Origin: Anaerolineae bacterium
Lineage (GTDB): Bacteria; Chloroflexota; Anaerolineae; 4572-78; J111
Direction of reading: 5' to 3'
Assembly: GCA_020433805.1 (NCBI GenBank)
Contig: JAGRBZ010000003.1
Span: 1-64,000, forward strand
Length of the DNA: 64,000 nt
Shown here one piece after another: positions 6,303 through 23,423 of this stretch. Position 1 is the first letter of the stretch, and each line of letters starts with the position of its first letter. Below the pieces are notes generated by a model. That model did not search any database, was not told the origin of the DNA, and saw nothing but the letters and a program-made list of their open reading frames with translations. A program made the position numbers and the translations under genes.

Positions 6303-6331
6303 TTGACAACGGAGCGAGATCGTAGTATAAT
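6303..6331 (+). promoter_or_regulatory. Consensus sigma-70 promoter of the structured RNA
   Basis: TTGACA (6303-6308), a 17-base spacer and TATAAT (6326-6331) form a perfect consensus promoter. Transcription would start near 6337-6339, exactly where the closing helix of the RNA begins. No open frame follows, which argues for a non-coding product. Confidence 0.88.
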
Positions 6332-6337
6332 AGTACT

Positions 6338-6588
6338 AAGAGAGTCCCAAGGAATTCGGACGCACCCTGAGATGGGGAGTGAAAAGTAAACAGCTTTTGG
6401 CAAGCGGAGCGATACTGGTAGAACAGGTTTAACCGTAAGTTGGTGAAAAGGGTAACTCTGGGAAACCAACAAGTAATTGGTAGGTAAAACTATCGGTTCG
6501 GAGTCAAAAAGATGTCTCTTTCGAAGAAATTCGAAAGCAAGTAGCTGCTAAAATCCGGGGAAGCGAAAGGTTAATCGGGGCTCTCTTA
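6338..6588 (+). ncRNA. Stand-alone structured RNA of about 250 nt, family not recognised
   Basis: The 5' end AAGAGAGTCCC (6338-6348) pairs with GGGCTCTCTT plus neighbouring G (6577-6587) in an 11 bp helix with one wobble. Inside lie several hairpins: GCTT/AAGC (6393-6405), GTTGGT/ACCAAC (6439-6470), a seven-pair helix 6477-6483/6490-6496, and CTTTCGAA-GAAA-TTCGAAAG (6518-6537) with a GAAA tetraloop. Purine-rich joining segments such as GGGAAACCAA and GGGGAAGCGAAAGG resemble tertiary-contact motifs. The conserved words of RNase P, tmRNA, SRP RNA and common riboswitches are absent. The multi-branched layout is unlike the long rod of 6S RNA. It has its own promoter and terminator, and no gene follows on the same strand. 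Confidence 0.75.
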
Positions 6589-6600
6589 TTTTTTAAAGCA

Positions 6601-6630
6601 AAAAGCCCAGGCATGCGCCTGGGCTTTTTT
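6601..6630. terminator. Bidirectional intrinsic terminator (structured RNA and hpt)
   Basis: AAAAGCCCAGGC (6601-6612), loop ATGC, then GCCTGGGCTTTTTT (6617-6630) form a perfect 12 bp stem with a T-run. The A-run on the left provides a T-run for the opposite strand, so the same hairpin ends the RNA on the plus strand and the hpt transcript on the minus strand. Confidence 0.92.
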
Positions 6631-6662: not shown

Positions 6663-7229
6663 TTATTCCTGTTTCAATTGATCCGGATCGACTCTGACCA
6701 GGTAGGGTAAGTTGCGATACCGCTCATCGTAGTCCAGTCCATACCCCACCACAAAGTAGTCCGGCATATCAAAGCCAATATAATCCAGTTCGATGTCGAT
6801 GATCCGGCGGCGAGGACGGTTGAGTAGCGTGCAAACCCGGCAACTGGCCGGTTCTCGCAACTGCAAATTATGCATAATAAAGCGGGTGGTAAAGCCGGTG
6901 TCAATAATATCTTCAACAAAGAGAACGTGGCGGCCCGTAATCGTTTCGTCTAAATCTTTGGTCAATCGAACTACACCGTGCGTCTGTTCGCTGGGACCGT
7001 AACGGGACAGGGCCAGAAAATCGACGGTGACAGGGATCGTCATCGCCCGCAGCAAGTCGGCCATAAAGATGAAAACACCGGTTAGCACACCAATTAAGAT
7101 CAAATCCTGACCGGCATAATCGCGGCTGATCTCTGCGCCCAGTTGCGTCACACGTTGCTGAATCTCGTCCTCGGTTAAATAAATTGTACCAATTTCACCC
7201 GGCCAGTCGGCAGAGGATTGATCGGTCAT
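6663..7229 (-). CDS. hpt: Hypoxanthine phosphoribosyltransferase
   Basis: This 188-residue enzyme of purine salvage joins PRPP to hypoxanthine or guanine to form IMP or GMP in the cytoplasm. It shows the PRPP-binding loop VLFVEDIIDTGFTT near residue 100, LIGVLTGVFIFMADLLRA at the N-terminal side, and the C-terminal IGFDMPDYFVVGYGLDYDERYRNLPYL. GGGGAGA six bases upstream fixes ATG 7229. A TTG 15 bases further out lies inside the ribosome site itself and is less likely. It is the second gene of a minus-strand pair, 58 bases after the nuclease-like gene. Confidence 0.95.
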   Translation of the reverse strand: MTDQSSADWPGEIGTIYLTEDEIQQRVTQLGAEISRDYAGQDLILIGVLTGVFIFMADLLRAMTIPVTVDFLALSRYGPSEQTHGVVRLTKDLDETITGRHVLFVEDIIDTGFTTRFIMHNLQLREPASCRVCTLLNRPRRRIIDIELDYIGFDMPDYFVVGYGLDYDERYRNLPYLVRVDPDQLKQE

Positions 7230-7287
7230 TGTCCGTCTCCCCAAAAAATAGGGTAGTCAGGTATTGGAAGTCGGTGGTTCGATATTA

Positions 7288-10673: not shown

Positions 10674-12008
10674 TTAATCATCATCGTCATCATCCCCACC
10701 GCCTTTGCCGGAGTTATCATCGTCATCATCACTGCCGGAGTTACTGCTGCCGGAGCCGGAATTATCGTCGTGATGATCATCATCAGAGCCGCTGCTGCCG
10801 GAGCCAGAATTATCATCGGAGCCACTGCCACTGCTGCCGCTATTATCGTTGTCGGGTTCAACAGTAATTTCAAACTCACGCACATCGTCATCTTCGGCGT
10901 TACCCGGCCCCGAGTTGTCGACATCCGGCACACTATCGTCATCACTACCGGAGTTACTGCTGCCCGGCCCCGAGTTATCCTCATCAGGCGTGTTATCATT
11001 ACTACTACCGGAGTTGTTACTGCCCGGTCCTGAATTATCATCCGCCTCATCACTATCACGCTCATCACGCTCATCGTCATCGGTGGCATCATTGTCCTGC
11101 ATCGGCGAGGGTAAGGGGGTGGGGATGATTTTGATGATGTCCGATGTCGATTGGCCAACGGGCGTCGCGGTTGCGGTTGGCGGTAGTGGTGTCGCTGTTG
11201 GCAACGGTGTGGAGGTTGCCGTTGGTGTCGGCGTTGGCGGTAGCGGTTCGAGCAGCGTAACCGTGCTAGCGTCCAGCTCTCCGGTAGCGTTTGTTTCCCC
11301 TTCGATGCGCACACGTGCGCCCACAACCAAATTTTCACGCTGGGCGGCTTTCGGGGCCAAGTTAAGCGTTACGCCGTTTATGGTGATCGAAGTCTCGGTA
11401 AGGGCCTCGATGCGTCCGGTTATTGTTACGGAGGCGGTTTCGTTCGATTCGGTCAGGCGATCCACTTCTTCCAAGCGGCGTTGGTTAAACGTTTCTTCCA
11501 AGCGCTGCCGCTGGCGGATATCAGGGGCGACATTGAGCTGAATAGTTTCTGACAGCCGCTTGATGGGATACAAAGCCTGGCCGGGCAAGCTCCCTTCGGC
11601 GGCCAGAACCAATCCACCGCCCAGTAGGCTGCCCAAACCACAAATGAACAACAACAGCGTCACCGCGATAGCTGTCGACAGCCCGGTGCTGAACAGCAAC
11701 CGGCTTAGCGTGAAGCGCGGCCACGCTGAATGATGTCTCACCGGCTGGGGACGATTGGTCGGGGCCGGAGCTGTTAGAGTCTCGGCATGCGCCAGCAGAC
11801 GATCGAGGCTAGGTTGTGGCGGTGGGACGGCGAGCGCCGGTTTTAAGCCGTCAACCTCGGCGGCTAGCTCCAGCATGGGGCGCAGCCAGACAGCGTCTTC
11901 ACCGGCTTCGGCCAATACCTCTGCCATAGAAAGCCCGGCGGCTAACAGGGCTAAAGCCTCATCGAATTGGTCTGCCTGATTAAACGTAGGCTCGTTGTTC
12001 ATCGTCAT
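10674..12008 (-). CDS. Membrane anti-sigma-like protein (DUF5667/DUF5666) with acidic Ser-Gly tail
   Basis: This 444-residue protein has a cytoplasmic helical N-terminus (1-100) and one membrane segment (about 106-136). A DUF5667-like helix pair follows, starting GSLPGQALYPIKRLSETIQL (139-190). A DUF5666-like small barrel (VTITGRIEALTETSITINGV, 195-252) comes next, then a Pro/Thr linker (255-303) and a 140-residue tail of Asp, Ser, Gly and Asn built from DDNSGSGS-type units. The start ATG 12008 directly follows the TAG of the sigma gene, so the two are translationally coupled. This is the standard sigma/anti-sigma order, with the N-terminus expected to hold the sigma factor at the membrane. 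The tail is shared with the lipoprotein at 14345. Confidence 0.82.
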   Translation of the reverse strand: MTMNNEPTFNQADQFDEALALLAAGLSMAEVLAEAGEDAVWLRPMLELAAEVDGLKPALAVPPPQPSLDRLLAHAETLTAPAPTNRPQPVRHHSAWPRFTLSRLLFSTGLSTAIAVTLLLFICGLGSLLGGGLVLAAEGSLPGQALYPIKRLSETIQLNVAPDIRQRQRLEETFNQRRLEEVDRLTESNETASVTITGRIEALTETSITINGVTLNLAPKAAQRENLVVGARVRIEGETNATGELDASTVTLLEPLPPTPTPTATSTPLPTATPLPPTATATPVGQSTSDIIKIIPTPLPSPMQDNDATDDDERDERDSDEADDNSGPGSNNSGSSNDNTPDEDNSGPGSSNSGSDDDSVPDVDNSGPGNAEDDDVREFEITVEPDNDNSGSSGSGSDDNSGSGSSGSDDDHHDDNSGSGSSNSGSDDDDDNSGKGGGDDDDDD

Positions 12009-12566
12009 CTAAATCACGTCTTCTTCCATAGAGCGAGACTGCATCAATTGGGCCAGTGTTCGCATCGCCCTAAATTGTAGCCCCTTGATTGCCCCCGGCT
12101 TTTTGTCGAGCGCCTGGGCAACGCTTTGAATATCCAAACCCTCCATAAATCGCAATACGATAACCTCACGCTGCTCGTCGGTAAGCTGTTGAATAGCCTC
12201 TACCAATTCGCGGTTGCGCTCGCTTTGAATAGCCTGCTGGAGAGGATTCATCTGCTCGGCTGAAGTGAGTTGCTCGTCGAGTTCCACCTCGGACACGCGT
12301 TCGCGATGGCGGTAGTGATCGGCTACCACATTACGAGCAATGCCCATAATCCAACCCTGCGGCGAATCGCGCCAGGCCGAGCCTCGACGCAGGGCTTCCA
12401 AAGCCCGCACGAAAATTTCACCGCACAGATCTTCTACCGTCCGTGGGTCGCCGACTTTGAACTGCACATAGCGGGCCACCATAGCGTAGAAGCGCCGGTG
12501 GAATTCGCGCAGACCGTCGGGGTTGAGTTGTTTGGCTTTTTCCAGCAATACCTGTTCGTTGGTCAT
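12009..12566 (-). CDS. ECF-type RNA polymerase sigma factor
   Basis: This 185-residue protein has sigma-70 region 2 (REFHRRFYAMVARYVQFKV, then TVEDLCGEIFVRALEAL and GWIMGIARNVVADHYRHRER). Region 4 has LTDEQREVIVLRFMEGLDIQ and a helix-turn-helix at VAQALDKKPGAIKGLQFRAM. Region 3 is absent, as in extracytoplasmic-function factors. It is expected to be freed from the adjacent membrane anti-sigma protein by an envelope signal. ATG 12566 is preceded by a leader with a long inverted repeat at 12579-12676. No classic ribosome site is visible (ACCCTAACG precedes the ATG), so the leader may control translation. Confidence 0.92.
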   Translation of the reverse strand: MTNEQVLLEKAKQLNPDGLREFHRRFYAMVARYVQFKVGDPRTVEDLCGEIFVRALEALRRGSAWRDSPQGWIMGIARNVVADHYRHRERVSEVELDEQLTSAEQMNPLQQAIQSERNRELVEAIQQLTDEQREVIVLRFMEGLDIQSVAQALDKKPGAIKGLQFRAMRTLAQLMQSRSMEEDVI

Positions 12567-14344: not shown

Positions 14345-15391
14345 ATGCAACCCATTAAATTTTATTCTATGGCACTAATCGTTGCTCTCATGGTCGCGCT
14401 AACCGGTTGTGGTACACCACCTCTGGCGGCTCCGAATGCTGAAGCGACGGCCACGGTGCCAGCAGCTAACGCCAACACTAATGAAAATGGCAATGACGTG
14501 AATACCAATACCTCGAACGACAATGAAGCGGAAGCCGGCAATGAAAACAGCAACGGTCTCGATGACAATACCAATGAAAATTCGGACGACACGGATAATA
14601 GTAATAGTCTCGAAGATAACATTCTCAATACAAATGCCAACGCCAATGCCAATGAAAATGAAAATGAGAATGAAAACAACGCCATCAATGGTAATTCAAA
14701 TGATAACCAGGGTGATGATCTTAGCAATGCCAATATCAATACGAACACTAATGAAAATAACAATGAGAATAGCAACGCCAATGAGAATGAGAATTCCAGT
14801 TTAGATAACGATGCTGCAAATAGTAATGCCAACGCCAATGAAAATGAAAACGAAAATGAGAATGCGAACAGCAATAGCAACGCCAACGACAATAGTAATG
14901 AGAACGAAAATAGCAATGAGAATGGTAACGCCAACAACAATCAGAATTTTAATGACAATGGTAATGATGACAGCAGTAACAGTAACGCCAACGAAAATGA
15001 AAATGAGAATGCTAATGAGAACAGCAACACTAACGACAACCTAAACGATAACGTCGCTGACGATAACAGTAATACGAATTCAGGCGACGATAGTGGCAAT
15101 GATAACGGCGGGTCTGATGATAATAACGACTCCGGCGACAATTCCGGCAGCAGTTCTGATGACCACCGAGATGACAATTCCGGCAGTGGTTCTGATGATC
15201 AGCGGGACGATAACTCCGGCAGTGGTTCCGGAGATGATCATCACGATGACAATTCCGGCGGTGGCGGAGACAACCATGATGATCGTGATGATAACTCCGG
15301 CAAAGGCGGTGGGGGTGATGATGACGATGATGGTGACCGCAGTGGTGGAAAATCAGGTAAAGGTGGCGGTAAGAACGACGATGATGATTAG
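14345..15391 (+). CDS. Asn-rich low-complexity lipoprotein with acidic Ser-Gly tail
   Basis: This 348-residue protein has a lipoprotein signal (MQPIKFYSMALIVALMVALT, lipobox LTGC). After it come about 215 residues built almost wholly of Asn, Glu, Asp, Ser and Ala (NANENEN-type repeats). The tail of DDNSGSGS, HHDDNSGGGG and GKGGG units is closely like that of the anti-sigma protein at 10674. No folded domain is visible. AAGGAG 14333-14338 sets ATG 14345; an in-frame ATG 21 bases upstream lacks a ribosome site. It follows the GT-C-like gene by 43 bases and is probably co-transcribed. An attractive idea is that the tail or Asn tract is a glycosylation substrate of that neighbour, but this is only inference. 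Confidence 0.82.
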   Translation: MQPIKFYSMALIVALMVALTGCGTPPLAAPNAEATATVPAANANTNENGNDVNTNTSNDNEAEAGNENSNGLDDNTNENSDDTDNSNSLEDNILNTNANANANENENENENNAINGNSNDNQGDDLSNANINTNTNENNNENSNANENENSSLDNDAANSNANANENENENENANSNSNANDNSNENENSNENGNANNNQNFNDNGNDDSSNSNANENENENANENSNTNDNLNDNVADDNSNTNSGDDSGNDNGGSDDNNDSGDNSGSSSDDHRDDNSGSGSDDQRDDNSGSGSGDDHHDDNSGGGGDNHDDRDDNSGKGGGGDDDDDGDRSGGKSGKGGGKNDDDD

Positions 15392-21080: not shown

Positions 21081-23423
21081 TCAGTTACCGGCTCCCACCA
21101 GCGATTGAGCGGTCTCGGTATCGACAATGCAGAGTTTCCAGCCTGGTTCAATGGTATTGGCATTTTCAATGTTGGCAAAGCTGGTATCAACTTGATTCTT
21201 TTCGTTGGTGGCGGTCACGATAGCCGGATACAGGAAGAGATCGCCAAAGTATTTGTCGGCCAGCTTCGAGAGCCAGTCGTCGGCCACGACAATATATTCT
21301 TCTTCACAGACAAGGCCTGTTGCGTCAGTAGACTGGGCTGTGCTTTCGGTTTCATCGGATACATCAGAATCATCGGCCTCGATACTTTCGTCGGTGGCGC
21401 TTGTCTCGTCGGTGTCAGTAACCTCGGCTGCTGTATCTGCTTCGTCGGTTTCGGCTACCGCGTCTGTCTCATCCGTCGAGTCGGCTGTATCGACGTCACC
21501 GGTATCAGCGATTTCATCGGCTGTGTCGGCGGCATCGGTTTCAGTAGATTCAGCGGCTGTATCGGTTTCATCGGCTTCAGCCGTTTCGTCCGTTTCATCG
21601 GCTTCGTCGGCTTCGGCAACCTCATCCGATGTATCTGTCTCGTCTGCGGCATCGGTTTCGGTTGGTTCGTCGGTTTCAGCGGTTGATGAACTGTCTTCTT
21701 CTTCCGGCTCGGCTAGCGTGAGCGTAATCGTCTCAGAGGTTGCGGTAACGGTGCCGTCTTCATCCACGGCATTGACGACCACATCCATCTCGCCCGAGTG
21801 GTCGATGTCGGCGGTCAGCGACCATCGGCCACTCGAGCCGACCGTAGTTGTGCCGATGACCTCCCCATCAACCACCACTTCGATCTCCGTACCCGGTTCG
21901 CCCGTACCCCGGAAGGTCTGGCGGCCTGTTGTTAGCGTGGCTGTGGCGCGTGGCGAAGTTAAGGCCGGTGGGGCGACTTCGGTTTCCGGCGCGACAATGG
22001 TGTACAGCGTCGGGTCGGTCGAGGTGATGATTTGTCCGTCCTCATCGAGCGCATTGACAACGATCTCGTAATCGCCCGGCTCATCCAAGGTCATATCAAA
22101 CGCCCACGTGCCGTCGGCATCTACAGTTGCGGTGCCGATAACATCACCATCGACGACAATTTCAACTTCGCTGCCGGGTTCGCCGGTGCCGGTGAGGGTT
22201 AGCTCCCCGGCGCTTACATCGCTGGTGGGCAGATCAAGCGTTGGGAGAGCTACATCCGTTTCTGTTTCCTCCGGTTCGGTAACAGAGATGGTTGTGGGTT
22301 CGGAGGTGCCTACAATCTCGCCATCCGCATCCAAACTGTTGACGACAATATCATAGTCGCCCGGCTCGTCAATCGCGGCATCGAGCGACCAGGTGCCATC
22401 GTCATCTACCGTTGCCGTGCCGATGCTTTCACCATCGACGACAACCTCAACCTCGCTGCCGGGTTCGCCGGTTCCGGTCAGGGTAGATTCACCGGCCCTT
22501 AGATCGAACGTGGGCAAATTGAAGACCGGCAGGGTAAAATCGAGTTCGGGTAAGCCAAAGGACAAGCGGGAAGCCTCCGAAGAGGCGTAGGTGTTGCCGT
22601 CGGCATCTAGACCATTAACAGTGATGTCGTAATCGCCCGATTCATCTAAAGTGGTATCGAGCGACCAGGTGCCATCCTCATCGACCGTCGTTGTGCCCAA
22701 CGACTCACCATCGGCCATCACCTCAACCTCGCTGCCGGGTTCGCCAGTGCCGGTCAGGGTGAATTCACCAGCCCTTAAATCGCCGGTCGGCAGATCGAAG
22801 GTCGGCAGGGCAAAATCGAATTCCGGTAAGCCAAAGGACAAGCGGGAAGCCTCCGAAGAGGCGTAGGTGTTGCCGTCGTCATCCAGCCCATTAACAGTGA
22901 TGTCGTAATCGCCCGGCTCGTCGAAAGATGTGTCGAGCGACCAGGTACCGTCCTCTCCGACAGTCGTTGTGCCAAGCGACTCGCCGTTAGCCAACACGTC
23001 AACCTCGCTGCCGGGTTCGCCGGTGCCGGTCAGGGTGAATGCGCCTGTGGTCAGATCGCCTGTCGGCAAATCGAAGGTTGGAACCGGTAACTCCGGAAGC
23101 ATGGCTTCTTCTGTCGCCGGTTCGGCCGGTTCGACAACACCTGCACTCGACTCGGCACCCTCTTCCGGTTCAACGGTTGCTATAGTTTCCGTGGTAGCTT
23201 CTACCGCTGCGGCGTCATCCTCGCTTTCTGCTCCTGACACTGCTTGGTTATCCGCTACTTCTTCAGTCTCTCCGGTTACATCTTCTTCGATGATCTCCTG
23301 TAACTCGGACCGATCAATCATGCTATAGACTAAGAAGAACAAGATGACAAATAGTACAAAAACAACAATAAGTTTGAAGATGTCGTATTGTTTGACTTCT
23401 TCCTGTGTTCGATGGCGGATCAT
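21081..23423 (-). CDS. Exported Ig-repeat protein with LysM-like C-terminus, copy 2 (long form)
   Basis: This 780-residue protein has a membrane anchor or signal near 17-37 (IFKLIVVFVLFVILFFLVYS) and then an acidic linker. Five tandem beta domains of about 92 residues carry the core LTGTGEPGSEVEVxxDGE and WSLDxxxDEPGDYDIxVN. A ~150-residue low-complexity tract of Thr, Asp, Glu and Ala follows. The C-terminal LysM-like domain starts CEEEYIVVADDWLSKLADKY and closes IEPGWKLCIVDTE. The start ATG 23423 is two bases from the stop of the HhH gene, so the two are coupled. The DNA of neighbouring domains is nearly identical over 54 bases with a 276 bp period, which signals recent expansion. Confidence 0.88.
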   Translation of the reverse strand: MIRHRTQEEVKQYDIFKLIVVFVLFVILFFLVYSMIDRSELQEIIEEDVTGETEEVADNQAVSGAESEDDAAAVEATTETIATVEPEEGAESSAGVVEPAEPATEEAMLPELPVPTFDLPTGDLTTGAFTLTGTGEPGSEVDVLANGESLGTTTVGEDGTWSLDTSFDEPGDYDITVNGLDDDGNTYASSEASRLSFGLPEFDFALPTFDLPTGDLRAGEFTLTGTGEPGSEVEVMADGESLGTTTVDEDGTWSLDTTLDESGDYDITVNGLDADGNTYASSEASRLSFGLPELDFTLPVFNLPTFDLRAGESTLTGTGEPGSEVEVVVDGESIGTATVDDDGTWSLDAAIDEPGDYDIVVNSLDADGEIVGTSEPTTISVTEPEETETDVALPTLDLPTSDVSAGELTLTGTGEPGSEVEIVVDGDVIGTATVDADGTWAFDMTLDEPGDYEIVVNALDEDGQIITSTDPTLYTIVAPETEVAPPALTSPRATATLTTGRQTFRGTGEPGTEIEVVVDGEVIGTTTVGSSGRWSLTADIDHSGEMDVVVNAVDEDGTVTATSETITLTLAEPEEEDSSSTAETDEPTETDAADETDTSDEVAEADEADETDETAEADETDTAAESTETDAADTADEIADTGDVDTADSTDETDAVAETDEADTAAEVTDTDETSATDESIEADDSDVSDETESTAQSTDATGLVCEEEYIVVADDWLSKLADKYFGDLFLYPAIVTATNEKNQVDTSFANIENANTIEPGWKLCIVDTETAQSLVGAGN
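22549..22878 (-). repeat. 276 bp tandem repeat inside the Ig-repeat gene
   Basis: A 54-base stretch starting GGTAAGCCAAAGGACAAGCG is identical at 22549-22602 and 22825-22878. The offset is 276 bp, exactly 92 codons and one beta domain. Flanking parts of the unit are also very similar. Repeat number is therefore prone to change by slippage or recombination, and assembly collapse is possible here. Confidence 0.85.

Follow-up and report, generated by a model that had tools for sequence, protein, structure and literature searches.

A putative family of stand-alone structured RNAs in Chloroflexota, recognised from a locus beside hpt in an Anaerolineae genome

Between two genes of an Anaerolineae bacterium, at positions 6303-6630 of the 64,000-nt stretch of DNA analysed here (the window; contig JAGRBZ010000003.1 of assembly GCA_020433805.1), lies an RNA gene. 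It probably belongs to a hitherto undescribed Chloroflexota family of structured RNAs that stand alone and act in trans, most likely as the RNA component of a ribonucleoprotein. That the locus is a real RNA gene is clear: many genera share its promoter, helices and 3' end, with extensive compensatory change, which places it far beyond chance. On comparison of sequences there is good support both for the RNA and for its novelty. Structural evidence is strong, the gene anatomy is clean, one carrier is a complete chromosome (CP070811.1), and no curated family matches. Large conserved noncoding RNAs have often proved to be central machines or global regulators, and this one offers a target for experiments in a phylum on whose structured RNAs the literature found seems to say little.

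The locus reads on the forward strand. It opens with a sigma-70 promoter at 6303-6331, TTGACA-17-TATAAT, whose -35 box (6303-6308) and -10 box (6326-6331), set 17 nt apart, match the consensus at 12 of 12 positions, as perfect as the preliminary description had claimed. The RNA body, P1 to P1', occupies 6338-6587, as delimited by covariance models R1 and R2, homologues and covariation. The intrinsic terminator that had been claimed is also there, a hairpin at 6600-6629 evident in the sequence and in the predicted fold; since the neighbouring hpt gene is convergent, it could serve both strands. With the terminator included, fold energy has a z of -6.2 and none of 200 dinucleotide shuffles folded as well; for 6338-6587 without the terminator, z is -4.6. 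The RNA locus contains no plausible reading frame, in keeping with the absence of an open frame reported at the outset: the longest overlapping ORFs are 42 aa (forward strand) and 61 aa (reverse strand), and both cross the promoter.

All the helices lie on the same strand. P1 pairs AAGAGAGUCCC (6338-6348) with GGGGCUCUCUU (6577-6587) over 11 bp, one of them U-G, and is the 11-bp closing helix proposed earlier; as helix 1 of alignment A5 it is paired in 94% of cells, with both-side changes in 13 of 16 pairs. It continues towards P2 in the blocks of highest conservation on each side: AAGGAAUUC (6349-6357) on the 5' side, common to the variant-interior RNAs discussed below, and AAGGUUAAUC (6567-6576) on the 3' side, located by alignment A5 and by pattern scan. 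Conservation within the RNA is highest in this closing helix (GCCCCAAGNAAUY.../...GGUUACUUGGGGC), a feature beyond those in the preliminary description. P4 (6374-6380 with 6543-6549; helix 4) is weak in the window RNA and strong in homologues (e.g. CUGGCU/AGCCAG), and shows covariation in 7 of 7 pairs. P5, UUUGGC (6396-6401) with GUCAAA (6503-6508), closes an inner junction from which P6, P7 and P8 branch; it is helix 6 of alignment A4, 93% paired and covarying in 6 of 6 pairs.

The four internal hairpins that had been claimed, one with a GAAA tetraloop, are all present. P6 (6404-6436; GCGG...CCGU) is 100% paired in A4 and almost invariant in sequence, its base AAGCGG / ACCGUAAG especially so. 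P7 (6439-6470; GUUGGU...ACCAAC), 97% paired with both-side changes in 5 of 6 pairs, carries a conserved GAAAAGG / GGGAAA internal loop. P8 (6477-6496) and P9 (6519-6536; UUUCGAA-GAAA-UUCGAAA, with the GAAA tetraloop) are helices 11 and 12 of A4, each with both-side changes in 7 of 8 pairs. The bases of P6 and P7 supply the best-conserved pairs of the family alignment. Besides the words of P6 and of the P7 internal loop, conserved words are AAGUAAG before the 3' strand of P4 and AAGGUUACUUGGGGC at the 3' end; GNRA loops recur among homologues, and facing purine loops of GGAA type can be read from the alignment of many members in P2, between P3 and P4, and in P7.

BLAST with the window RNA found, in 60 relatives, no match but the window itself. 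Among 396 genomes of the class it gave a weak match, L006, that extends over 130 nt at 65% identity and is equipped with a TTGACA-17-TATAGT promoter of its own, a terminator and a closing helix of 13 bp; relatives of L006 supplied three more homologues, and a short BLAST match, L008, proved to cover the 3' terminus of a homologue adjacent to hpt. Model R1, a covariance model restricted to the inner junction and built from 5 sequences, added five further genomes. P1, P2 and P4, which are absent from R1, pair in the full-length new members, an out-of-sample check on the structure. With R2, the full-length covariance model, matches were found in 27 of the 396 class genomes at E ≤ 0.01, 19 of these below 1e-11, model E-values being rough. 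Core-family homologues are thus present in at least 20 Anaerolineae genomes (the 19 below 1e-11 and G396). CP070811.1 apart, the carriers are mostly metagenome assemblies. No match came from many Anaerolineae genomes of good quality; since the large runs scored 5-8 candidates per genome, absences are weak evidence and counts are lower bounds. The window RNA itself has the core form defined by R2: P1 and P4-P9 with covariation, and its own promoter and terminator.

A strict inner-junction pattern matched 14 times in 84,980 species genomes, nine times in Chloroflexota and five in other phyla; the latter (L032, L035, L038, L040, L042) are without the closing helix, and their number fits chance expectation. 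The core motif was found in no viral contig, and what matched in phages and plasmids was no more than the terminator hairpin. One match to the RNA model, L067 (G300:C452), is false: it lies on a long low-complexity array of GGTAAACCAGTAAACC units and is not counted as a member.

Compensatory changes in homologues, which had been put forward as a check on the RNA itself, are abundant. In ten full-length units, pairing-keeping changes on both sides occur in 49 of 68 helix pairs, counted from a plain MAFFT alignment, the structure being derived from the same ten sequences. The same units have 87.3% of cells in standard pairs vs 71.9% when shuffled, and a covariation score of 0.548 vs 0.280 shuffled and 0.165 and 0.177 when partners were slid by one. 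Thirty model-aligned matches raise the count to 60 of 67 pairs, in an alignment made to R2 and hence biased towards the structure.

The gene anatomy is conserved together with the fold. A sigma-70 promoter that agrees with the consensus at 9 or more of 12 positions and lies no more than 50 nt upstream of P1 precedes 24 of 35 homologous loci vs 0.85% of random stretches, and in those loci the -10 box ends 1-11 nt before P1. Most homologues have a T run within a few bases after P1, many to most of those examined have a hairpin terminator there, and full-length homologues keep the order promoter, P1, core, P1', terminator. With the promoter so placed, and with a T run or terminator just beyond, the transcript very probably starts and ends at P1.

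These elements suggest how the RNA may work. Transcription from its own sigma-70 promoter would begin at P1 and end at its own terminator, and the product would fold into P1/P2, the intermediate stem P4 and an inner junction that bears P6, P7 and P8 and has P9 at its side. A stable, abundant RNA is what the promoter, the strongly conserved terminal helix with its purine-rich internal loops and the branched GNRA-loop core together indicate. We infer that it acts in trans with a bound partner: as the RNA of a ribonucleoprotein, its terminal helix and core would be held by a conserved partner, in a housekeeping or growth-phase role after the manner of raiA/ModT or 6S, although related to neither. 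Its presence across many Chloroflexota makes it probably a basic cell component. Lineages would remodel the interior while keeping the terminal helix.

This last proposal derives from RNAs at the margin of the search. R2 also touched three genomes (G080, G089, G359) in which P1/P2 are nearly letter-for-letter those of the family and the interior is branched differently; their shared ends read GGRAGCCCCAAGRAAYUGGAAGGC ... GGUUACUUGGGGCYYC. The same ends occur in more than 10 further genomes of the class, on the convergent side of hpt genes, with interiors of varying length. A scan for the 3' word over 400 genomes of the phylum gave seven matches outside class Anaerolineae. Three of them, in three families (G507, G479, G562), possess the corresponding 5' strand, CCCAAGUAAUC or CCCAAGUAGUC, are preceded closely by a TTGACA promoter and followed by a T-run, and form folds more stable than those of shuffled sequences (z -3.8, -4.1 and -6.0, respectively); the other four have no partner strand and were taken as chance. 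Judged from ends, promoter and position, common descent of the RNAs in this putative wider group appears likely. We tentatively entertain, as a bolder reading whose odds fall short of even, a phylum-level Chloroflexota housekeeping RNA dating back to the divergence of Anaerolineae from the other classes, its terminal helix fixed and its interior rebuilt between lineages, with an importance like that of 6S or SRP RNA and a new biochemical role. Fixed ends around a changing interior would, if true, be unusual among bacterial RNAs. Given the strong differences among some members, it is doubtful that the interior has one conserved function.

That same variability is what a base-pairing regulatory sRNA would display, its terminal helix stabilising the transcript and its fast-changing interior carrying sites antisense to mRNAs. 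RNAs with the closing helix range from 116 to 313 nt overall and their branching changes while P1 stays; moreover, sRNAs often end at intrinsic terminators. Within the core family, however, almost all interior helices covary and the junction and loop words stay near-invariant, which has the look of a folded machine, not of a region that seeks out targets, and we regard an antisense regulator as unlikely, at perhaps the level of a serious minority possibility.

The genomic neighbourhood bears on a further explanation, an element tied locally to hpt, which would adjust its expression by convergent transcription, antisense read-through or as a 3' element. In the window, hpt (hypoxanthine phosphoribosyltransferase; TIGR01203, 194.8 bits, cut-off 150) is the convergent neighbour, on the reverse strand at 6663-7244. 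The suggestion that homologues should be sought next to hpt in related Chloroflexota was borne out: 12 of the 26 homologous units, from several families, are followed by a convergent hpt at a distance of 16-109 nt, and in G479, of another class, a few nt separate the RNA from the end of the hpt that converges on it. Yet 14 of the 26 units have no hpt within the flank examined, and most of these keep the RNA with its promoter; in the window, the terminator separates RNA from hpt; and the synteny is equally explained by vertical inheritance of an old position. Other neighbours are a cobalamin adenosyltransferase (two genomes of one family) and, elsewhere, transporters or unrelated genes. From family to family the neighbours differ, yet the RNA retains its own promoter and terminator, which argues for action in trans. 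An old position beside hpt with later moves explains the synteny better than a cis role, and while some local effect on hpt is possible, an element whose function is to serve hpt seems improbable. At the G479 locus (L112), the hpt sequence is the C-terminal part of an open frame of more than 470 codons, possibly a fusion.

Two genomes carry tandem units, 81% identical in G112 and 74% in G052, that are 4-5 nt apart behind one promoter, with no promoter between units. Such copies could reflect dimer formation in an RNA-only assembly of the OLE, ROOL or GOLLD kind, and the facing GGAA-type internal loops and GNRA loops would suit it; with those RNAs the present one shares an elaborate conserved secondary structure and the lack of a known function at discovery. 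But OLE, ROOL and GOLLD are much larger, and the new RNA has no Rfam match or phage association; its members are mostly single copy; and raiA, an RNA of about this size, is monomeric (PMC12286853). An RNA-only assembly is accordingly still less probable than an hpt-tied element. Between the tandem RNAs of G112 and hpt (L030) there is a cluster of short, hairpin-capable repeats like GGCGCGAAAGGCACGAAAGGG.

Lack of relation to curated families is supported by direct search. The Rfam check proposed for the locus came back empty: at the gathering cut-off, Rfam 15 gave no match anywhere in the window, and no known family over the RNA in 30 homologous loci. A permissive search of the window produced matches that were all far below cut-off, the best being to the terminator; BSnc120, MicC and the others are terminator-driven. 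It returned no 6S or RNase P covariance-model match at the RNA locus. The preliminary description had seen in this locus an unassigned stand-alone structured RNA, and the gene's own promoter and terminator, the Rfam result and the covarying homologues uphold that view. No published description of the RNA was found in the literature searched, which left out most subscription papers.

The claim that the RNA is not RNase P, tmRNA, SRP or 6S was likewise sustained by the finding of true copies elsewhere. 6S RNA (RF00013) is on another contig of the window's genome (G000:C569:3106-3289; 80.1 bits, cut-off 46.4) and exceeds its cut-off away from the RNA locus in 10 of 12 carriers, that genome included; SRP RNA (RF00169) was found elsewhere in 7 of 7 genomes, with 67.1 bits (cut-off 40) in the window's genome, and RNase P RNA (RF00010) elsewhere in 6 of 6. 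One homologue (L075) even has a canonical RNase P gene as its neighbour, at a distance of some 140 bases. These copies refute identity with 6S, SRP or RNase P RNA. ARAGORN detected no tmRNA (RF00023) in the window; tmRNA is present elsewhere in 5 of 6 genomes, all five being other carriers, and the window's incomplete genome has tRNA-like pieces only. Thus, although size, promoter and single copy would fit a very divergent 6S, RNase P, tmRNA, SRP or raiA RNA, the true copies of the first four and a score of 0 of 12 for raiA make this explanation extremely improbable.

In style, raiA/ModT comes closest among known RNAs, though none of the tests made here relates the new RNA to it. The new RNA resembles 6S in its single copy in most genomes, strong promoter and long closing helix, and differs in that 6S is one bubbled hairpin whereas the new RNA has a branched core. 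raiA has been described mostly from Bacillota and Actinomycetota. Twelve carrier genomes held no raiA (RF03072) over the 101.3-bit cut-off, the best score being 19.5 bits at an unrelated place. Like the new RNA, raiA/ModT stands alone between genes, measures about 200-250 nt, is served by a housekeeping promoter and a terminator, and has a multi-branched fold whose peripheral stems vary; its published consensus has two pseudoknots and stems P1-P8 (PMC11706538); the difference is that neither the window nor the homologues gave a raiA match. Chloroflexi-1 RNA (RF01698) is a candidate structured RNA of the same phylum (PMC2864571), but is listed only from Chloroflexus aggregans, and its Rfam family gave no match here.

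RNase P RNA itself may be unusual in the window's lineage, because in the window's genome (G000:C915:55087-55481) it scores 91.8 bits, a little below the cut-off of 100, in G010 (G010:C9:71762-72199) 92.8 bits, just below it, and in the single-contig genome G018 (G018:C1:2742526-2742633) there is a partial match of 55 bits only.

Elsewhere in the window, a tandem array at 22380-23078, with a 276-bp unit in 2.5 copies at 84% matches, possibly encodes repeat domains of a large protein. Low-complexity repeat regions rich in Ser, Asp and Asn lie at 10674-12008 (reverse strand) and 15136-15270, and the gene at 12009-12566 (reverse strand), from a reading of its sequence only, is a putative ECF-type sigma factor.
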